Shown: one piece after another, positions 36,429 through 45,999 of the stretch
Layout of the letters: every line of letters begins with the position of its first letter
Position numbering within the stretch: position 1 is the first letter of the stretch
Assembly (NCBI GenBank): GCA_903873475.1
Contig: CAIQON010000284.1
Span: 1-45,999, forward strand
From: an uncultured bacterium
GTDB taxonomy: Bacteria > Pseudomonadota > Gammaproteobacteria > Burkholderiales > CAIKXV01
Length of the DNA stretch: 45,999 bases
Reading direction: 5' to 3'
The notes under the pieces: model-generated
Database searches by the model: none
Seen by the model: the letters and a program-made list of their open reading frames with translations, nothing else
What the model was told of the DNA's origin: nothing
Program-made: the position numbers and the translations under genes

Positions 36429-38009
36429 TCAACCGTACAGAACCTTCGGCAGCCAGGTCGCGAGCCCAGGAAAATACCAGACCAGGAACATGCAGGCTGA
36501 CTGGATCGCCACGAAAGGGACGATCCCGCGGTAGATGTCGCCGGTGGTGACCTCGGGTGGCGCGACCCCTCGCAGGTAGAACAGCGAGAAGCCGAACGGT
36601 GGCGTGAGATAGCTCGTCTGCAGGTTGATGCCGATCAGGATCGCCAGCCACACCGGGTCGACGTCCATCTTCAGCAGCACCGGCGCGGCCAGCGTCACCA
36701 CGATGAAGATGATCTCGAACGGGTCCAGGAAAAACCCGAGTACGAAGATGATCGCCATCACCACGAACAGTGCGCCATCGGCGCCGCCCGGCATCGCGTT
36801 CAGGAACTCGTGCACCAGGTTTTCGCCGCCCAGCCGCGAAAAAACCACCGAGAACACGCTGGCACCGAAGAAGATCACGAACACCATGCCGGTGATCACC
36901 AGGCTGGATGTACCGGTCTCGGACAATGAACGAACGCATTGCGCGCGGGTGCCGCGCAGCAGCAGTGCCCAGGCAAGCAGCCCGATCAGCAGCACCACTG
37001 CCAGCGTGAGCAGGCCCAGCGCACCGGCTACGAGATCGACGATCGCCAGCAATGCCAGCAGCGCGATCCAGAACCAGAAGTTGAAGCGCTCGACCCGTTC
37101 CGGCGACAGGCTGCGCGAATACCACTCCGACAGCATGCGCACCAGCATCAGCACCAGCGCGCCGACCGCGCCGACCGATGCCGACTCGGTCGGCGTCGCC
37201 ACGCCGGCGATGATCGAACCGAGCACTGCGACGATCAGCAGCAGCGGTGGCACCAGCGCGATCACCACGCGGCGCGGCAGCGAGGCTTTCTGCGCTGCAT
37301 CGAGCACCAGCGCCGGCGCGGTATGCGGCAGGAAGAACGCGCGTCCGCCCACCCAGAGGATGTAGAGACCGGCGAGCAGCAGGCCGGGCAGGAAGGCGCC
37401 GGCGAACAGGTCGCCAACCGATAGTGTTTCGGGCTGGAAGTTGCCCTTGGCCATCTGTGCCTGGCTGTAGGCGCTCTGCAGCACCACCGCCAGCACCACC
37501 AGGATGGTCGAAGGCGGGATGATCTGCCCGAGCGTTCCGGAGGCACAGATCAGGCCGCTTGCCATCCGCTTGTCGTAGCCGGCGGCGAGCATCGAGGGCA
37601 GGCTGATCAGGCCCATGGTCACGACGGTCGCGCCGACGATGCCGGTCGATGCGGCGAGCAGCGTGGCGACGATGATCGCCGAGATGCCCAGGCCGCCGCG
37701 CACCGGGCCGAACAGCTGGCCCATGGTGGTCAGCAGGTCTTCCGCGATCTTCGAGCGTTCGAGCAGCACGCCCATCACCACGAACAGCGGTACCGCGATC
37801 AGCACGTCGTTGGTGAGGATGCCCCAGTAGCGCAGCGGCAGCGAGTTGAAGTAGCTCAGGTCGAACACGCCGAGCGACCAGCCGAGCACCGCGAACAGCA
37901 CCGCGACGCCCGGCAGCGTGAACGCGACCGGATAGCCGAGCATCAGGATGAACACGATCGATGCGAACAGCGCGACCGCGAGGATCTCTCCGAGCAGGAC
38001 AGCATCCAT
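36429..38009 (-). CDS. TRAP transporter large permease (DctM type)
   Basis: The 526-residue inner-membrane protein is the ion-coupled permease of a TRAP uptake system. It has about 13-14 hydrophobic segments, with family blocks MLGYPVAFTLPGVAVLFA, PLFVVMGVLLERSKIAEDLL, SGLICASGTLGQIIPPSTILVVLA and LQTSYLTPPFGFSLFYLRG. It is larger than the common 425-residue DctM because of an insertion of hydrophobic and charged segments near 240-330 (SEWYSRSLSPERVERFNFWFWIALL), as found in the TakM-type subgroup. I chose ATG 38009, which shares one base with the stop of the small permease gene; the 648-residue track ORF runs through that gene. Confidence 0.94.
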   Translation of the reverse strand: MDAVLLGEILAVALFASIVFILMLGYPVAFTLPGVAVLFAVLGWSLGVFDLSYFNSLPLRYWGILTNDVLIAVPLFVVMGVLLERSKIAEDLLTTMGQLFGPVRGGLGISAIIVATLLAASTGIVGATVVTMGLISLPSMLAAGYDKRMASGLICASGTLGQIIPPSTILVVLAVVLQSAYSQAQMAKGNFQPETLSVGDLFAGAFLPGLLLAGLYILWVGGRAFFLPHTAPALVLDAAQKASLPRRVVIALVPPLLLIVAVLGSIIAGVATPTESASVGAVGALVLMLVRMLSEWYSRSLSPERVERFNFWFWIALLALLAIVDLVAGALGLLTLAVVLLIGLLAWALLLRGTRAQCVRSLSETGTSSLVITGMVFVIFFGASVFSVVFSRLGGENLVHEFLNAMPGGADGALFVVMAIIFVLGFFLDPFEIIFIVVTLAAPVLLKMDVDPVWLAILIGINLQTSYLTPPFGFSLFYLRGVAPPEVTTGDIYRGIVPFVAIQSACMFLVWYFPGLATWLPKVLYG

Positions 38010-38587
38010 CAGGCGGCCCCTCCGGTGTCCCCGGGCTGCCCGCGCAGCGCGACCAGCGAGCGGCAGACCAGCGACACACCCTGCAGCCCGACCAGCGCCA
38101 CGAAAACGAGGAAGGTGCCTTTCAGCAAGTACAGCCGCGGCAGGCCGTCGGCATACTGCGAGGCCTCGTTCATCTTCAGCGAACTGGCGAAGAACGGCCA
38201 GCCGTAGGCGGCCATCATCCAGAGGAAGGGCGCCATGAACACGACGGTGCCGAACAGGTCGACCATCGCCTTGCGCCGTTCCGACATGCGCGCATAGAAC
38301 ATGTCGATGCGCACGAAGCCGCCCTTGAGCAGGCAGTACCCCGCACCGAACATGATCGCCGCCGCATGCGTCCACATGTACAGCTCCTGCAGCCAGGTCA
38401 TGCCGATACCCAGCGCGTAGCGCAGGTAGACGGTGGCGAAGCAGATCACCACCGTTGCCAGGAACAGCACGGCGGTGGTTCGGCCGATGCGATCGTTCAG
38501 CGCGTCGATCCTGTCGGCGGTGCCTAGCAGCAGGCGCTCAGCGCGCACCGGCCCGATCCGACGAGAGGTGCGGTGCCGCTCAGACAT
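38009..38587 (-). CDS. TRAP transporter small permease (DctQ type)
   Basis: The 192-residue protein has four membrane segments (TTAVLFLATVVICFATVYLRY, ELYMWTHAAAIMFGAGYCLL, MVDLFGTVVFMAPFLWMMAAYGW, LLKGTFLVFVALVGLQGVSLV). WLQELYMW is the usual DctQ motif. ATG 38587 overlaps the stop of the binding-protein gene by eight bases, so the three TRAP genes form one coupled unit: binding protein, small permease, large permease. The track start eight codons earlier is unlikely. Confidence 0.92.
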   Translation of the reverse strand: MSERHRTSRRIGPVRAERLLLGTADRIDALNDRIGRTTAVLFLATVVICFATVYLRYALGIGMTWLQELYMWTHAAAIMFGAGYCLLKGGFVRIDMFYARMSERRKAMVDLFGTVVFMAPFLWMMAAYGWPFFASSLKMNEASQYADGLPRLYLLKGTFLVFVALVGLQGVSLVCRSLVALRGQPGDTGGAA

Positions 38588-39692
38588 ACTTGAACTTGAG
38601 CGAGCGTGCATTGAACATCGCGCGGTCGGATACCTCCGTCAGCGCCGACGTCGTGTTGCGCGCCGAGAAGTAGGCATCGAAGATCTTCCTGCCGAGCGGA
38701 TCGAGCTTCGCGCGCTCATCGACCAGCAGTTCGCCGGCCGCGGTGCCGAGCGCGGCGAGGATCTCGTCGGGCAGGCGCAGGAACTTGATGCCGTGCTTCT
38801 GGCGCAGGGTGTCGGCAGCGCGTGCATTGATCCAGTTGTACTCGGCCAGCATGTCCTGATGGCACGACTGGCAGGCGTGTTCGACGATCGCCTTCAGCGA
38901 CGGCGACAGCGCGTTCCACGCCTTCTGGCTCACGATCGCCTGCTGGATCGCTCCCTGCTTCTGGATGCCGGGCCAGTAGTAGAACTTGCAGACCTGGTGG
39001 AAACCGAGGGCCATGTCGTTCGCCGGCCCGGTGAACTCGGCGGCATCGAGCGCACCCGACTGCAGGGCCGGGAACACGTCGCCTGGCGCCATCAGGGTCG
39101 GCACCGCACCGACGCGGCGGATCATCTCTGCGCCCAGCCCCGGCATGCGCATACGCACGCCCTTCAGGTCGGCGACGGTGCGCAGTTCCTTCTTGAACCA
39201 ACCGAACGGCGGCGTACCGATGTTGCCCACCGCGAAGCTCTTGACGCCGAACTGACCGGACAGTTCGTCCCACAGTTCCTGCCCGCCGCCGTACTCGAGC
39301 CAGGCCACGTGTTCGGTGTAGCTCATGCCGAACGGTGCGCTGAAGAAGTAGCCGAACGCGCGATGCTTGCCCAGGTGGAAGCCGGGTGTGTCGTGCGCCA
39401 TCTCGGCGGTGCCGTTCTGGACCGCCTCGAAGGTCTGCAGGCCCGGCACCAGTTCACCGGCGGCGAACACGCGTACGGTCAGCCGGCCTTCGGACATCTG
39501 GGTGATGCGCTGGGCCAGGCGCTCGGCCCCCGTACCCAGGCCCGGCAGGCCCTTCGGCCATGCGGTCACCATCCTCCACTCGATCCGGCCCTGGCTGATC
39601 GCGGGCGCGGATACGGTCGCAGCGGCGGTGGTGGTCGCTGCAAGGACGGCCGCCTTGCCGGCGGACTTGTTGAGGAAGGAGCGACGGTTCAT
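38580..39692 (-). CDS. TRAP transporter substrate-binding protein (DctP/TakP type) with Tat signal
   Basis: The 370-residue periplasmic protein captures the TRAP substrate. The N-terminus MNRRSFLNKSAGKAAVLAATTTAAA has a twin-arginine motif (RRSFLNK), so Tat export is likely. The mature part has IEWRMVTAWPKGLPGLGTGAERLAQRI, GVRMRMPGLGAEMIRRVGAVPTLMAPGDVFPALQSGALDAAEFTGPANDMALGFHQVCKFYYWPG and QDMLAEYN, the pattern of the TakP subgroup that binds 2-keto or related organic acids. An odd feature is HACQSCHQ at residues 272-279, a CXXCH sequence. The exact ligand is unknown. Confidence 0.93.
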   Translation of the reverse strand: MNRRSFLNKSAGKAAVLAATTTAAATVSAPAISQGRIEWRMVTAWPKGLPGLGTGAERLAQRITQMSEGRLTVRVFAAGELVPGLQTFEAVQNGTAEMAHDTPGFHLGKHRAFGYFFSAPFGMSYTEHVAWLEYGGGQELWDELSGQFGVKSFAVGNIGTPPFGWFKKELRTVADLKGVRMRMPGLGAEMIRRVGAVPTLMAPGDVFPALQSGALDAAEFTGPANDMALGFHQVCKFYYWPGIQKQGAIQQAIVSQKAWNALSPSLKAIVEHACQSCHQDMLAEYNWINARAADTLRQKHGIKFLRLPDEILAALGTAAGELLVDERAKLDPLGRKIFDAYFSARNTTSALTEVSDRAMFNARSLKFKYV

Positions 39693-40949: not shown

Positions 40950-42476
40950 ATGACGCCGGCACAGGACGTGGCCGCGATCCTCGCACGGCTGCGGGTGGAG
41001 GCTTCGGTGTCGGTCGCCTCAGCGCACCCCGGATGCATCGTTTCGCACTCGCCGATCGATGGCGCGTCGATCGGCAGCGTGAGGCCTTCGGCTATTGATG
41101 GCGTCGCCGCCGCCATCGCGCGAGCCTCGACGACCGCCGCTACCTGGCGCAGCGTGCCCCCGCCTCTGCGCGGTGAACTCGTGCGCCGCTTCGGCCTGAA
41201 ACTGCGCGCCGCGAAGGACGACCTCGGCCGGCTGGTCACGCTGGAGAACGGCAAGATCCTGCAGGAAGGCCTGGGCGAAGTGCAGGAGATGATCGACATC
41301 TGCGACTTCGCGGTCGGGCTGTCGCGGCAACTGCATGGACTGACCATCGCCTCCGAGCGGCCCGGCCACCGGATGATGGAGACCTGGCATCCGCTGGGCG
41401 TGGTCGGCGTGATCTCGGCGTTCAACTTCCCGGTCGCGGTGTGGGCGTGGAACGCCGCGCTCGCCTGGGTGTGCGGCAACGCGGTGGTCTGGAAGCCATC
41501 GGAGAAGACGCCGCTGACCGCGCTCGCCTGCCAGCGGCTGTTCGAAGCTGCGTGCGAAGGATTCGACGCGGCACCGCCGGCGCTGTCGACCGTGCTTCAG
41601 GGCGATGCGTCGATCGGACAGGCGCTGGCCGCCGACGCACGGGTCGCGCTGGTGTCTGCGACCGGCAGCACGCGCATGGGCCGCGCGGTCGCGCCGGTAG
41701 TCGCGACGCGCTTCGGCCGTGTGCTGCTGGAACTCGGCGGCAACAACGCGATGGTGGTCGCACCGTCGGCCGACCTCGACCTCGCGGTGCGCGCGATCGT
41801 GTTTTCGGCGGTGGGTACTGCGGGCCAGCGCTGTACGACGCTGCGGCGACTGATCGTGCACGAATCGATCGCCGAGCGGCTGCTGCCGAGGCTGCGCGCA
41901 CTGTGGCCTACGCTGGCGGTCGGCGACCCGCGCGAGCCCGGTACGCTGGTCGGACCGCTGATTGATGCGGCGGCTGGCGAGGCGATGCAACGCGCGCTCG
42001 ACGCGGCGGCGGCCGAAGGCGGCACCGTGCTGGGCGGCGAGCCGCGCCTGCGCGACACGCATCCGCACGCCTGCTACCGCGCACCCGCACTGGTCGAGAT
42101 GCCGGCCCAGTCATCGATCGTGCGGCAGGAGACCTTCGCGCCGATCCTGTACGTGTTGCGCTATCGCACGCTGGAGGAGGCGATCGCGCTGAACAATGCC
42201 GTCGCCCAGGGCCTGGCCTCGAGCATCTTCACCACCGACCTGCGAGAAGCCGAACGCTTCCTGTCCGCTTCGGGCAGCGACTGCGGCATCGCCAACGTGA
42301 ACATCGGCCCGTCGGGTGCGGAGATCGGCGGCGCGTTCGGTGGCGAGAAGGAGACCGGTGGTGGGCGGGAGTCGGGAAGTGATGCGTGGAAGGCGTACAT
42401 GCGGCGCGCGACGAACACGATCAACTACTCGGACGAACTGCCGCTGGCGCAGGGAATACGCTTCGACGCGTGCTGA
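40950..42476 (+). CDS. amaB: ALDH7-family aldehyde dehydrogenase (AmaB-like, P6C dehydrogenase)
   Basis: The 508-residue product is an NAD(P)-dependent dehydrogenase resembling the antiquitin/AmaB group, which oxidises alpha-aminoadipic semialdehyde (in equilibrium with the cyclic imine P6C) in lysine and pipecolate breakdown. The signs are GVISAFNFPVAVWAWNAALAWVCGNAVVWKPSEKTPLTA, LELGGNNAMVV with Glu261, VGTAGQRCTTLRR with nucleophile Cys295, and GIANVNIGPSGAEIGGAFGGEKETGGGRESGSDAWKAYMRR near the end. I chose ATG 40950 with GAGGGG upstream; the track ORF begins inside the regulator gene. It lies 55 bp after gntR and is probably co-regulated with it. Other ALDH7 substrates are possible. Confidence 0.87.
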   Translation: MTPAQDVAAILARLRVEASVSVASAHPGCIVSHSPIDGASIGSVRPSAIDGVAAAIARASTTAATWRSVPPPLRGELVRRFGLKLRAAKDDLGRLVTLENGKILQEGLGEVQEMIDICDFAVGLSRQLHGLTIASERPGHRMMETWHPLGVVGVISAFNFPVAVWAWNAALAWVCGNAVVWKPSEKTPLTALACQRLFEAACEGFDAAPPALSTVLQGDASIGQALAADARVALVSATGSTRMGRAVAPVVATRFGRVLLELGGNNAMVVAPSADLDLAVRAIVFSAVGTAGQRCTTLRRLIVHESIAERLLPRLRALWPTLAVGDPREPGTLVGPLIDAAAGEAMQRALDAAAAEGGTVLGGEPRLRDTHPHACYRAPALVEMPAQSSIVRQETFAPILYVLRYRTLEEAIALNNAVAQGLASSIFTTDLREAERFLSASGSDCGIANVNIGPSGAEIGGAFGGEKETGGGRESGSDAWKAYMRRATNTINYSDELPLAQGIRFDAC

Positions 42477-43078: not shown

Positions 43079-44407
43079 ATGGCGACTCGAAAGACCCCCT
43101 CCAGCCTGCCGCAGGGCGCGGTCACCGCGCTGCTGCCGGTCGAGATCCAGCCCGGCAACGTGCGCTACGCCCCCGGCATCCGTGCCGGCCGCTGGGTGTT
43201 CGCCACCGGCCACAAGGGCACGGCCGACTTCACCAGCGGCATGGCACCCGAGGTGGTCGATGCCGAGGCGCCGCGCCACGGCGTGCCGAAGTACAAGAAG
43301 GAGGCGCGCCAGGTGTTCGCCAACTTCGCGAAGGTGCTCAAGGCCGGCGGCAGCGACCGCGCGCATGTGGTGCGCGTGGACCAGTACTACACCGGTGGTC
43401 ATGTGGTCGATGCCTACCATGAGGTCCGGCGCGAGTTCTTCCGCGGCCATGTGCCGCCGAGCACCTCGAACCTGCACCAGAAGTTCCTGCTCTCGGGGCA
43501 GGACATGGAAGTCCAGCTGATGGCCGTGGCCACCGACAGTGGCTTCGAGCCGACCCAGCATCGGCCGGCCAACCTGCCGGTGCATGCGACCTCCGGCTAC
43601 AGCCCGGTGCTCACCTGTGGCGACCATGTCTTCATCGCGGGACAGACCTCGGAGGCGCTCAAGACCGAGGAAGGTCCGCTGGACCCGGCGGCACGCATGC
43701 CGGCCGGCCACCTGTGGAAGGGCACGCCGATCAAGCTCGAGGCCGGCTTCGCCATAGAACGCAAGCTCAAGCCCGCGCTGGCGGTGGTCGGCAACACGCT
43801 GGCCGACGTGGTGAAGGCGCAGGTCTACCTGCGCGACATCGACGACGTGCCGGCGTTCAACGAGGTCTGGGCCGGGCAGTTCGGCGGCGACATCCCGGCC
43901 ACCACCATCATCACGACCTCGAACCCGGGCTTCATCTGCGAGACCGGGCGCATCGAGATCAACACGATCAGCCTGAAGCATGGCGGGCGCACGAAGAAGA
44001 AGGTGATCGATGCCGGCGTGCCGGTGGCGTTCGCCGGCCATCCGCAGGCGGTGCGTGCCGGCGACCTGCTGTTCCTGTCCGGCCTGATGGCGGTCGATGC
44101 ACGCGGGGCGCTCGCGACCGACGTGCGCATCGACCCGCGCCAGCCGTGGTTCGGTACACCGGCCGAACTGCAGATGAACCGCATCCTCGAGCAGGCCGAG
44201 GCGATCTGCCGCAAGGCGGGTACCTCGCTCGCGAACACGGTGCGCGCGCAGCAGTTCCACACGGATCTGTCGGGCTTTCACCCGGCCTGGCGGGCCTGGC
44301 AGAAGCACCTGCCCGGGCACTACCTGCCGTTCTCGGCGATCGAGGTGCCGGCGCTGGCGGTGCCGGGCGCGGTCGTGATGCTGGACCTGTGGGTGTACGT
44401 GCCGTGA
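43079..44407 (+). CDS. three-domain RidA-family fusion protein
   Basis: The 442-residue product contains three successive RidA/YjgF-like domains, at about residues 30-152, 174-300 and 318-442. Each opens with a glycine-rich strand (GRWVFATGHKG, GDHVFIAGQTSE, GDLLFLSGLMA) and includes the family's helix-strand block (HVVRVDQYYTG, DVVKAQVYLRDIDDVPAFNEVW, NTVRAQQFHTDLSGFHPAWRAW). The Arg of RidA's PARS motif is replaced in all three: PPSTS, PATTI and YLPFS. Single-domain RidA proteins form trimers, so this chain could fold as a covalent pseudo-trimer. Deaminase activity is doubtful without the Arg. I chose ATG 43079; the track ORF from 42962 adds 39 residues. The function is unknown. Confidence 0.85.
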   Translation: MATRKTPSSLPQGAVTALLPVEIQPGNVRYAPGIRAGRWVFATGHKGTADFTSGMAPEVVDAEAPRHGVPKYKKEARQVFANFAKVLKAGGSDRAHVVRVDQYYTGGHVVDAYHEVRREFFRGHVPPSTSNLHQKFLLSGQDMEVQLMAVATDSGFEPTQHRPANLPVHATSGYSPVLTCGDHVFIAGQTSEALKTEEGPLDPAARMPAGHLWKGTPIKLEAGFAIERKLKPALAVVGNTLADVVKAQVYLRDIDDVPAFNEVWAGQFGGDIPATTIITTSNPGFICETGRIEINTISLKHGGRTKKKVIDAGVPVAFAGHPQAVRAGDLLFLSGLMAVDARGALATDVRIDPRQPWFGTPAELQMNRILEQAEAICRKAGTSLANTVRAQQFHTDLSGFHPAWRAWQKHLPGHYLPFSAIEVPALAVPGAVVMLDLWVYVP

Positions 44408-44469: not shown

Positions 44470-45492
44470 ATGAACCGTCATTCACCGTCCCGTCCTTCGA
44501 ACCTGCCGCGCCGTACCCTGGTCGCCGCCGTGGCCTCCGCGCTGCTGGCCGGCCCCGGCCTCGCGCTCGCCCAGCCGTCCGACCCGGCCTCGGGTTACCC
44601 GTCGCAGCCGATCCGTTTCATCATCCCGGCGACGGCCGGTGGCGGTACCGACGTGGTCACGCGGCTGATCGCGAAGTACATGACCGAAGCCTGGAACTCG
44701 CCGGTACTTGTCGAGAACCGTGCTGGCGCGGGGGGCGTGATCGCTGCGCAATACGTGTCGACGCAGAAGCCCGATGGCTATACCTTCCTGGCGATTCCGA
44801 GCGCGTTCGGCGTGCGCTCGGCGATCGACCCTAAGCTGCCCTACGATCCGTTGAAGGCCTTCGTCGGCGTGGGCCAGACCGCGCGTTCGCCGAGCTTCAT
44901 GGTCGTGTCGCCCGCGCGCGGCTTCAAGACGCTGAAAGATCTCATCGCCTTCGCCAGGGCGCAGCCGCAGGGCATCGTGTACGGCTCGGCCGGCGTCGGA
45001 AGCACCGCACACCTGCATGCAGCCGCGACCGCGCACCTGGCGGGCTTCAAGGCCGAGCATGTTGCCTACAAGGGCACGCCGGAAGCAGTGAACGATGCGA
45101 TGAACGGCCGCGTGCTCTACGCATTCGCGCCCGGGCCCAATGCGCTGCCCCTGGCGCGTGAAGGCAAGCTGCAGATCCTCGTCACCAGCTCGTTGCCCGG
45201 CACGAAGTACATGCCCGGGCTGCAGTCGCTGGCGCAAGCTGGCGTACCCGGTTACGAGAGCGAAGACTGGTTCGGCGTGCTCGCCCCGGCCGGCACGCCG
45301 CTGGCGATCCGCGAGCGGGTCTCGAAGGAGATGGCGCGCATCCTGTCACTGCCCGACGTGCGCGAGCGCTTCAGCACGTTCGGTGCCGAACCGGTATCGT
45401 CGACGCCGCAGGCATTCGACGCGTTCGTGCGCGAGTACATCATCCGCACCCGCAAGCTGGCCGAGGAAATCGGCATGAAGCCGGAAGGCTGA
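44470..45492 (+). CDS. tripartite tricarboxylate transporter (TctC/Bug) substrate-binding protein
   Basis: The 340-residue product has a basic start (MNRHSPSRPSNLPRRTL), a hydrophobic signal core (VAAVASALLAGPGLALA) and then YPSQPIRFIIPATAGGGTDVVTRLIAKYM, the Bug-family opening. VENRAGAGGVIAAQYV, HVAYKGTPEAVNDAMNGRV and LAQAGVPGYESEDWFGVLAPAGTP complete the pattern. No tctAB genes are present. It lies 62 bp after the triple-RidA gene and 10 bp before the M20 gene, suggesting an operon in which a captured carboxylate or N-acylated compound is processed. The ligand is not known. Confidence 0.93.
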   Translation: MNRHSPSRPSNLPRRTLVAAVASALLAGPGLALAQPSDPASGYPSQPIRFIIPATAGGGTDVVTRLIAKYMTEAWNSPVLVENRAGAGGVIAAQYVSTQKPDGYTFLAIPSAFGVRSAIDPKLPYDPLKAFVGVGQTARSPSFMVVSPARGFKTLKDLIAFARAQPQGIVYGSAGVGSTAHLHAAATAHLAGFKAEHVAYKGTPEAVNDAMNGRVLYAFAPGPNALPLAREGKLQILVTSSLPGTKYMPGLQSLAQAGVPGYESEDWFGVLAPAGTPLAIRERVSKEMARILSLPDVRERFSTFGAEPVSSTPQAFDAFVREYIIRTRKLAEEIGMKPEG

Positions 45493-45502
45493 GGAGGACA
45501 CG

Positions 45503-45999
45503 ATGTTCGATCATCCCGACCATGCGCGCGCGCTCGCGCTGATCACCCCGGAAGCGGTACGCGACACCCTGGTCGAGATGGTCGACATCTGCAGCCCGAC
45601 CGGGCGCGAGGCGGCGCTGGCCGAGTACATCGTCGCGCGGCTGCAGCGCTCGGGCATCCGCTCCTACCTGCAGGAGGTCGGCCCCGGCCGCCCGAACGCG
45701 ATCGGCGTGCTCTCGGGCACCGGCAACGGCAACAACCTGCTGTTCACCGGGCACATGGACACCTCCTCCGACGGCGACGAAGACTACCTGCCCGCCGAGG
45801 GCTTCAAGCCGAAGGCGATCGTGCGCGACGGCTGGATCTGGGGCCTGGGCGCGAACAACATGAAGAGCGGCCTCGCCTCGGCCATGGTTGCGATGGAGGC
45901 GCTGGCCAAGGCCGGCGTGAAGCTCGAAGGCGACGTGCTCTATGGCGGCGTGGTGGGCGAGACCGAGAAGTGCCAGGTCGAGGAGTTCCGCTCCGAGGC
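45503..45999 (+). CDS. M20 family amidohydrolase/peptidase, 3' end beyond the window
   Basis: The frame is open from ATG 45503, preceded by GGAGG five bases upstream, to the window edge; about 165 residues are present. VDICSPTGREAALAEYIVARLQ and LLFTGHMDTSSDGDEDY match the M20 family, which hydrolyses N-acyl amino acids or peptides with two metal ions. The usual GxGAxDMKGG reads GLGANNMKSG, so the bridging Asp is Asn. The usual Glu-Glu pair appears as VVGETEKCQVEEF. This may be a subfamily trait or loss of the metal site; the C-terminal ligands lie outside the window. It is in line with the TctC gene and is probably co-transcribed with it. Confidence 0.86.
   Translation, partial: MFDHPDHARALALITPEAVRDTLVEMVDICSPTGREAALAEYIVARLQRSGIRSYLQEVGPGRPNAIGVLSGTGNGNNLLFTGHMDTSSDGDEDYLPAEGFKPKAIVRDGWIWGLGANNMKSGLASAMVAMEALAKAGVKLEGDVLYGGVVGETEKCQVEEFRSE

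Follow-up and report, generated by a model that had tools for sequence, protein, structure and literature searches.

The triple-Rid gene and its predicted fold

The window, the whole stretch of 45,999 nucleotides that was analysed, encodes at positions 43079-44407 of the forward strand a protein of 442 amino acids built from three Rid repeats (PF01042, approximately residues 14-152, 160-302 and 304-442). Directly downstream lies a gene for a TctC/Bug-type periplasmic solute-binding protein (44470-45492, forward strand). On the other side are a gene for a single-domain Rid protein (PF14588; 42493-42990, reverse strand), which keeps the Arg of its motif, HARSAVG, and one for an L-piperidine-6-carboxylate dehydrogenase (40950-42476, forward strand), which scores 801.7 bits with NF050084 (cut-off 730). 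After the TctC gene comes an M20 (ArgE/DapE-like) hydrolase (45503-45997, forward strand), cut by the end of the window; only close relatives have it at this place in the gene order. A complete TRAP transporter set (DctM, DctQ, DctP) was observed upstream at 36429-39692 on the reverse strand, near the dehydrogenase and a GntR/FCD regulator, and is conserved in one related locus (L026). A scan for promoters and terminators found nothing.

Pfam recognises Ribonuc_L-PSP (PF01042) in three separate stretches of the open reading frame (E 6.6e-33), and TIGR00004 from NCBIfam also matches three stretches of the protein, with a score below the TIGR00004 cut-off. The protein is by sequence a member of the Rid superfamily and, as a single chain of three tandem Rid domains, has the arrangement known as 3x-RidA. 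Its start is common to five orthologues (L001-L005). Pairwise identity among the three domains is only 23-29%, and a recent internal duplication was therefore rejected as their origin. A chance repeat was rejected on the results from Pfam, AlphaFold2 and Foldseek. Inspection by eye shows no apparent signal sequence, and Pfam detects no DNA-binding domain.

AlphaFold2, given only 21 orthologue sequences as input, returned a single compact model with three Rid repeats (mean pLDDT 85, pTM 0.88). Residues 193-214 are of low confidence in this model, and this stretch contains the invariant W213 as well as G210. The loop ARMPAGHLWKG (residues 205-215, window positions 43691-43723), in which A205, W213 and G215 are invariant and model confidence is low, might close over a cleft as a lid. 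In a Foldseek search of the PDB, single domains of the model matched solved Rid proteins with target TM values of 0.80-0.89, as expected of the Rid fold. The only whole-chain matches among the 50 PDB matches listed were the chorismatases 4bps, 5ag3 and 5a3k, aligned over about 390 columns with a moderate target TM of 0.56-0.60, an rmsd near 6 Å and 12-14% identity. Chorismatase FkbO (4bps), a single chain like the protein described here, was reportedly found by Juneja et al. in 2013 to be monomeric and pseudo-threefold symmetric, with a relationship to Rid trimers. The initial annotation had proposed three RidA-like domains forming a covalent version of the usual homotrimer. Its coordinates and its three motifs (PPSTS, PATTI and YLPFS) were correct, the three domains are found both by Pfam and in the model, and the predicted pTM together with the whole-chain matches to pseudo-threefold proteins speaks for a putative intramolecular pseudo-trimer. 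Cyanuric acid hydrolase AtzD, whose Toblerone fold is thought to derive from three concatenated YjgF-type units (PMC3758960), is absent from the 50 matches listed; it differs in using a central barrel and a metal, whereas the triple-Rid protein is recognised by PF01042.

Distribution and conserved neighbours

One scan of GTDB representatives gave 28 loci, nearly all in Betaproteobacteria or in metagenome-assembled genomes of the Burkholderiales. All 11 genomes of the window's own family carry between two and five matches each, of about 388 genomes elsewhere in the order three had a strong match, and a phylum sample of about 400 genomes held no other genome with a full-length match at 1e-12. 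The window's genome itself has two triple-Rid paralogues, with 47% and 41% identity, and a total of 19 PF01042 matches over about 16 genes (on contigs C88, C181, C204, C220, C266, C282, C283 and others). Several metagenome-assembled genomes labelled Bordetella parapertussis (L005, L010, L012, L013, L022 and L027) carry the environmental betaproteobacterial triple-Rid family and look misnamed. Two other genomes encode, near triple-Rid paralogues, a further and divergent multi-Rid protein of about 460 amino acids (L078:2973-4361 and L082:11058-12443), which in a rough alignment also appears to be without the Arg.

The dN/dS ratio against close orthologues is about 0.06-0.07. In more distant pairs it is 0.14-0.30, values for which synonymous sites approach saturation. 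Purifying selection is seen in all three domains. A pseudogene or a sequencing artefact was rejected on the basis of the orthologues and the low dN/dS.

In each of the 22 main-group (group I) loci with enough flanking sequence, the TctC gene comes directly after the triple-Rid gene. These copies are 62-95% identical to that in the window, compared to about 28-47% for other TctC genes, and TctC genes adjoin several of the paralogous triple-Rid genes too. A single-domain PF14588 Rid protein is encoded beside the pair in about 18 of the 20 loci that could be judged. In most families it is on the same strand and downstream, whereas in the window's own family it is divergent; at two loci (L015 and L020) the last four bases of the TctC gene are also the first four of its called reading frame. 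All 24 complete copies of this partner have the Arg (HARS or HART). The cassette of triple-Rid, TctC and single Rid is conserved across many loci. No pathway enzyme is common to all cassettes: among the neighbours of several paralogue groups examined with Pfam, only TctC and the single Rid are shared. L-piperidine-6-carboxylate dehydrogenase is found near the triple-Rid gene only in the window's own family, and for that reason was rejected as a general pathway partner. The paralogue group at about 47% identity (L070:5715-9242) adjoins genes for leucyl/phenylalanyl-tRNA and arginyl-tRNA protein transferases and a ferredoxin, and has no TctC neighbour.

The Arg105 position and candidate cleft residues

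The equivalents of Arg105 were placed by alignment to the PARS motif of E. coli RidA/TdcF, domain 3 by matching YLPFSAIEV with FPARSCVEV. The residues found there are Ser128 in domain 1 (PPSTS; codon 43460-43462), Thr275 in domain 2 (PATTI; 43901-43903) and Phe418 in domain 3 (YLPFSAIEV; 44330-44332), all on the forward strand. In 53 aligned three-domain relatives these positions hold S or T in domain 1, T, V, L or I in domain 2, and F, L, Y or I in domain 3. Arg is absent from all three in 53 of 53, and neither R nor K occurs within two residues of them in any of the 53. The Arg at TdcF Arg105 that marks the imine deaminases of the RidA subfamily is therefore missing from the whole set. Nor does Trp occur at positions 128, 275 or 418 in any of the 53 sequences, so the Rid4/Rid7 footprint, a Trp at the Arg105 position, is also absent. 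The low dN/dS against close orthologues shows that the loss at three positions is neither chance nor sequencing error.

The survey of relatives bears out the absence of the PARS Arg from every domain, as the initial annotation had it, but the loss is less unusual than was implied there. According to Niehaus et al. 2015 (PMC4433059), Rid4 to Rid7 have no Arg and about 10% of RidA proteins have Ser instead; like the triple-Rid protein, these largely keep the glutamate while replacing Arg105, but they are single-domain proteins, whereas here the replacement differs from one domain to the next. Several single-domain Rid proteins of the window's own genome are without the Arg as well, with the motifs PAST, PANT, PAAT and PASA.

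The cleft residues of TdcF are Tyr17, Gly31, Asn56, Asn88, Arg105, Pro114 and Glu120 (PMC1884159). They were mapped onto the triple-Rid protein by our own alignment, using the 53 three-domain proteins. Gly31 is mostly retained. Asn88 corresponds to H114 in domain 1 (52/52), N261 in domain 2 (42/53) and W404 in domain 3, a variable, mostly aromatic position. The Glu120 position is occupied by E144, E293 and D436, and is strictly Glu across relatives only in domain 2 (E in 53/53); domain 1 has E in 33, D in 13 and other residues in seven of 53, and domain 3 has D in 50 and E in two.

Eight residues (R99, D101, Q102, H114, R117, K246, Q248 and E293) are kept in every relative with a letter at the column, which for R99 and R117 means 52 of 52. 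Most lie in one segment of domain 1 (43373-43468, forward strand), a candidate cleft face in which R99, D101, Q102, Y113, H114, R117 and S130 are invariant and T129 is 98% conserved. R117 is three residues, or about one helical turn, after H114. The unusual invariant residues of domain 2 are W213, K246, Q248, Y250 and N295, and those of domain 3 are R389 and W438. Conservation is asymmetric, as judged from the invariant set in domain 1 and the acids that persist in the other two domains: the most constrained parts are the Arg side of domain 1 and the acid sides of domains 2 and 3. This pattern, expected of a single functional cleft, suggests that one such cleft may be formed between domains.

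Possible functions of the triple-Rid protein

In our view the triple-Rid protein is an enzyme that has probably been repurposed, not broken, given its strong conservation next to an Arg-bearing Rid protein and a binding protein of transporter type. As a fuller description, we give about an even chance to a pseudo-trimeric Rid-superfamily enzyme of the cytoplasm in which a cleft between domains has been repurposed, and whose substrate would be tied to the adjacent TctC-type protein. The observations behind it are the three domains, the family-wide Arg loss, the conserved residues, the cassette, the purifying selection and the predicted compact fold; from them we infer catalysis, the identity of the active cleft, the class of substrate and how the work is shared with the partner Rid. 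On this proposal the three Rid domains, fused in one chain, would fold back into the usual trimer shape, and fusion would have left the three clefts free to diverge. All three would have lost the Arg that binds carboxylate, and on the side of domain 1 the cleft would have gained a new polar set (R99, D101, Q102, H114, R117, T129 and S130) facing a retained acid, E293 or D436, of a neighbouring domain. That single cleft may then bind and convert a small molecule, either an organic acid or a nitrogen compound, that is connected with the TctC-type protein, while the neighbouring Arg-bearing Rid might handle a reactive imine or enamine of the same pathway. The link to the transporter could be loose, since genes of the TctC type abound in these bacteria.

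The main rival is that the protein is still an imine/enamine deaminase of conventional chemistry, in which another Arg of the cleft, either R99 (strand 4) or R117 (helix 2), has taken over the function of the lost one. The initial annotation had held the usual deaminase chemistry to be unlikely. Its loss is plausible, because none of the 53 relatives has Arg at any of the three positions, but the invariant R99 and R117 are candidates for a relocated cleft Arg. Their invariance, the place of R117 one helical turn past the Asn88 equivalent and the acids kept at the Glu120 positions of domains 2 and 3 would all suit such an enzyme, as would the normal Rid encoded alongside and, in the window's family, the dehydrogenase. 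The compound used by L-piperidine-6-carboxylate dehydrogenase equilibrates with a cyclic imine. Against this, R99 does not look like a specific replacement, since a basic residue at its position is general in Rid proteins (Lys78 in the goat protein, and K246 and R389 in domains 2 and 3 here), and the Rid7 protein of S. enterica, which is without the Arg, showed no imine hydrolase activity (PMC4433059). We judge a relocated Arg to be unlikely. Loss of the Arg from all three canonical sites next to a conserved partner with an intact Arg would also fit a protein that binds a ligand or acts as a scaffold without catalysis, for example one that senses the compound taken up or one that partners the neighbouring Rid. 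The invariant polar clusters and retained acids suggest instead a chemical or ligand site, and a sensor would have to work without any DNA-binding domain that Pfam can detect. A pure scaffold, which had been raised as a possible role, is disfavoured by the invariant polar residues of domain 1 and the acids kept in domains 2 and 3, and the non-catalytic reading as a whole seems quite unlikely. The whole-chain fold matches and the persistence of E293 and D436 bring to mind a chorismatase-like hydrolase acting on an enol-ether or cyclic acid through the Glu or Asp of one cleft, but with 12-14% identity over the match and no shikimate-pathway gene among the neighbours examined, this is highly improbable.

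The idea of a covalent trimer made by fusion is already published: three-domain 3x-RidA proteins, presumed covalent trimers, were described by Niehaus et al. 2015, with EF_0115 of Enterococcus faecalis as an example (PMC4433059, the only paper in which a literature search found the term). The protein described here shares that tandem fusion. As far as the accessible description allows comparison, the published proteins are a subset of the RidA subfamily, whereas the present family is without the Arg in all three domains and has its own cassette. What is new is that Arg loss throughout the family is combined with a new, asymmetric set of residues and a conserved cassette. We would put forward only tentatively that this is a new class of Rid-superfamily enzyme, in which concatenation freed one inter-domain cleft for an Arg-independent reaction within a cassette dedicated to uptake and conversion that includes a periplasmic binding protein and a conventional Rid. 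The functions of Arg-less Rid proteins were called mysterious in 2015 (PMC4433059). The triple-Rid family offers a tractable handle on them, being fused and asymmetric, with conservation that points to one candidate cleft, and the conserved cassette narrows the search for its substrate. Alongside chorismatase and AtzD, it would be a further example of a Rid trimer concatenated and then repurposed.
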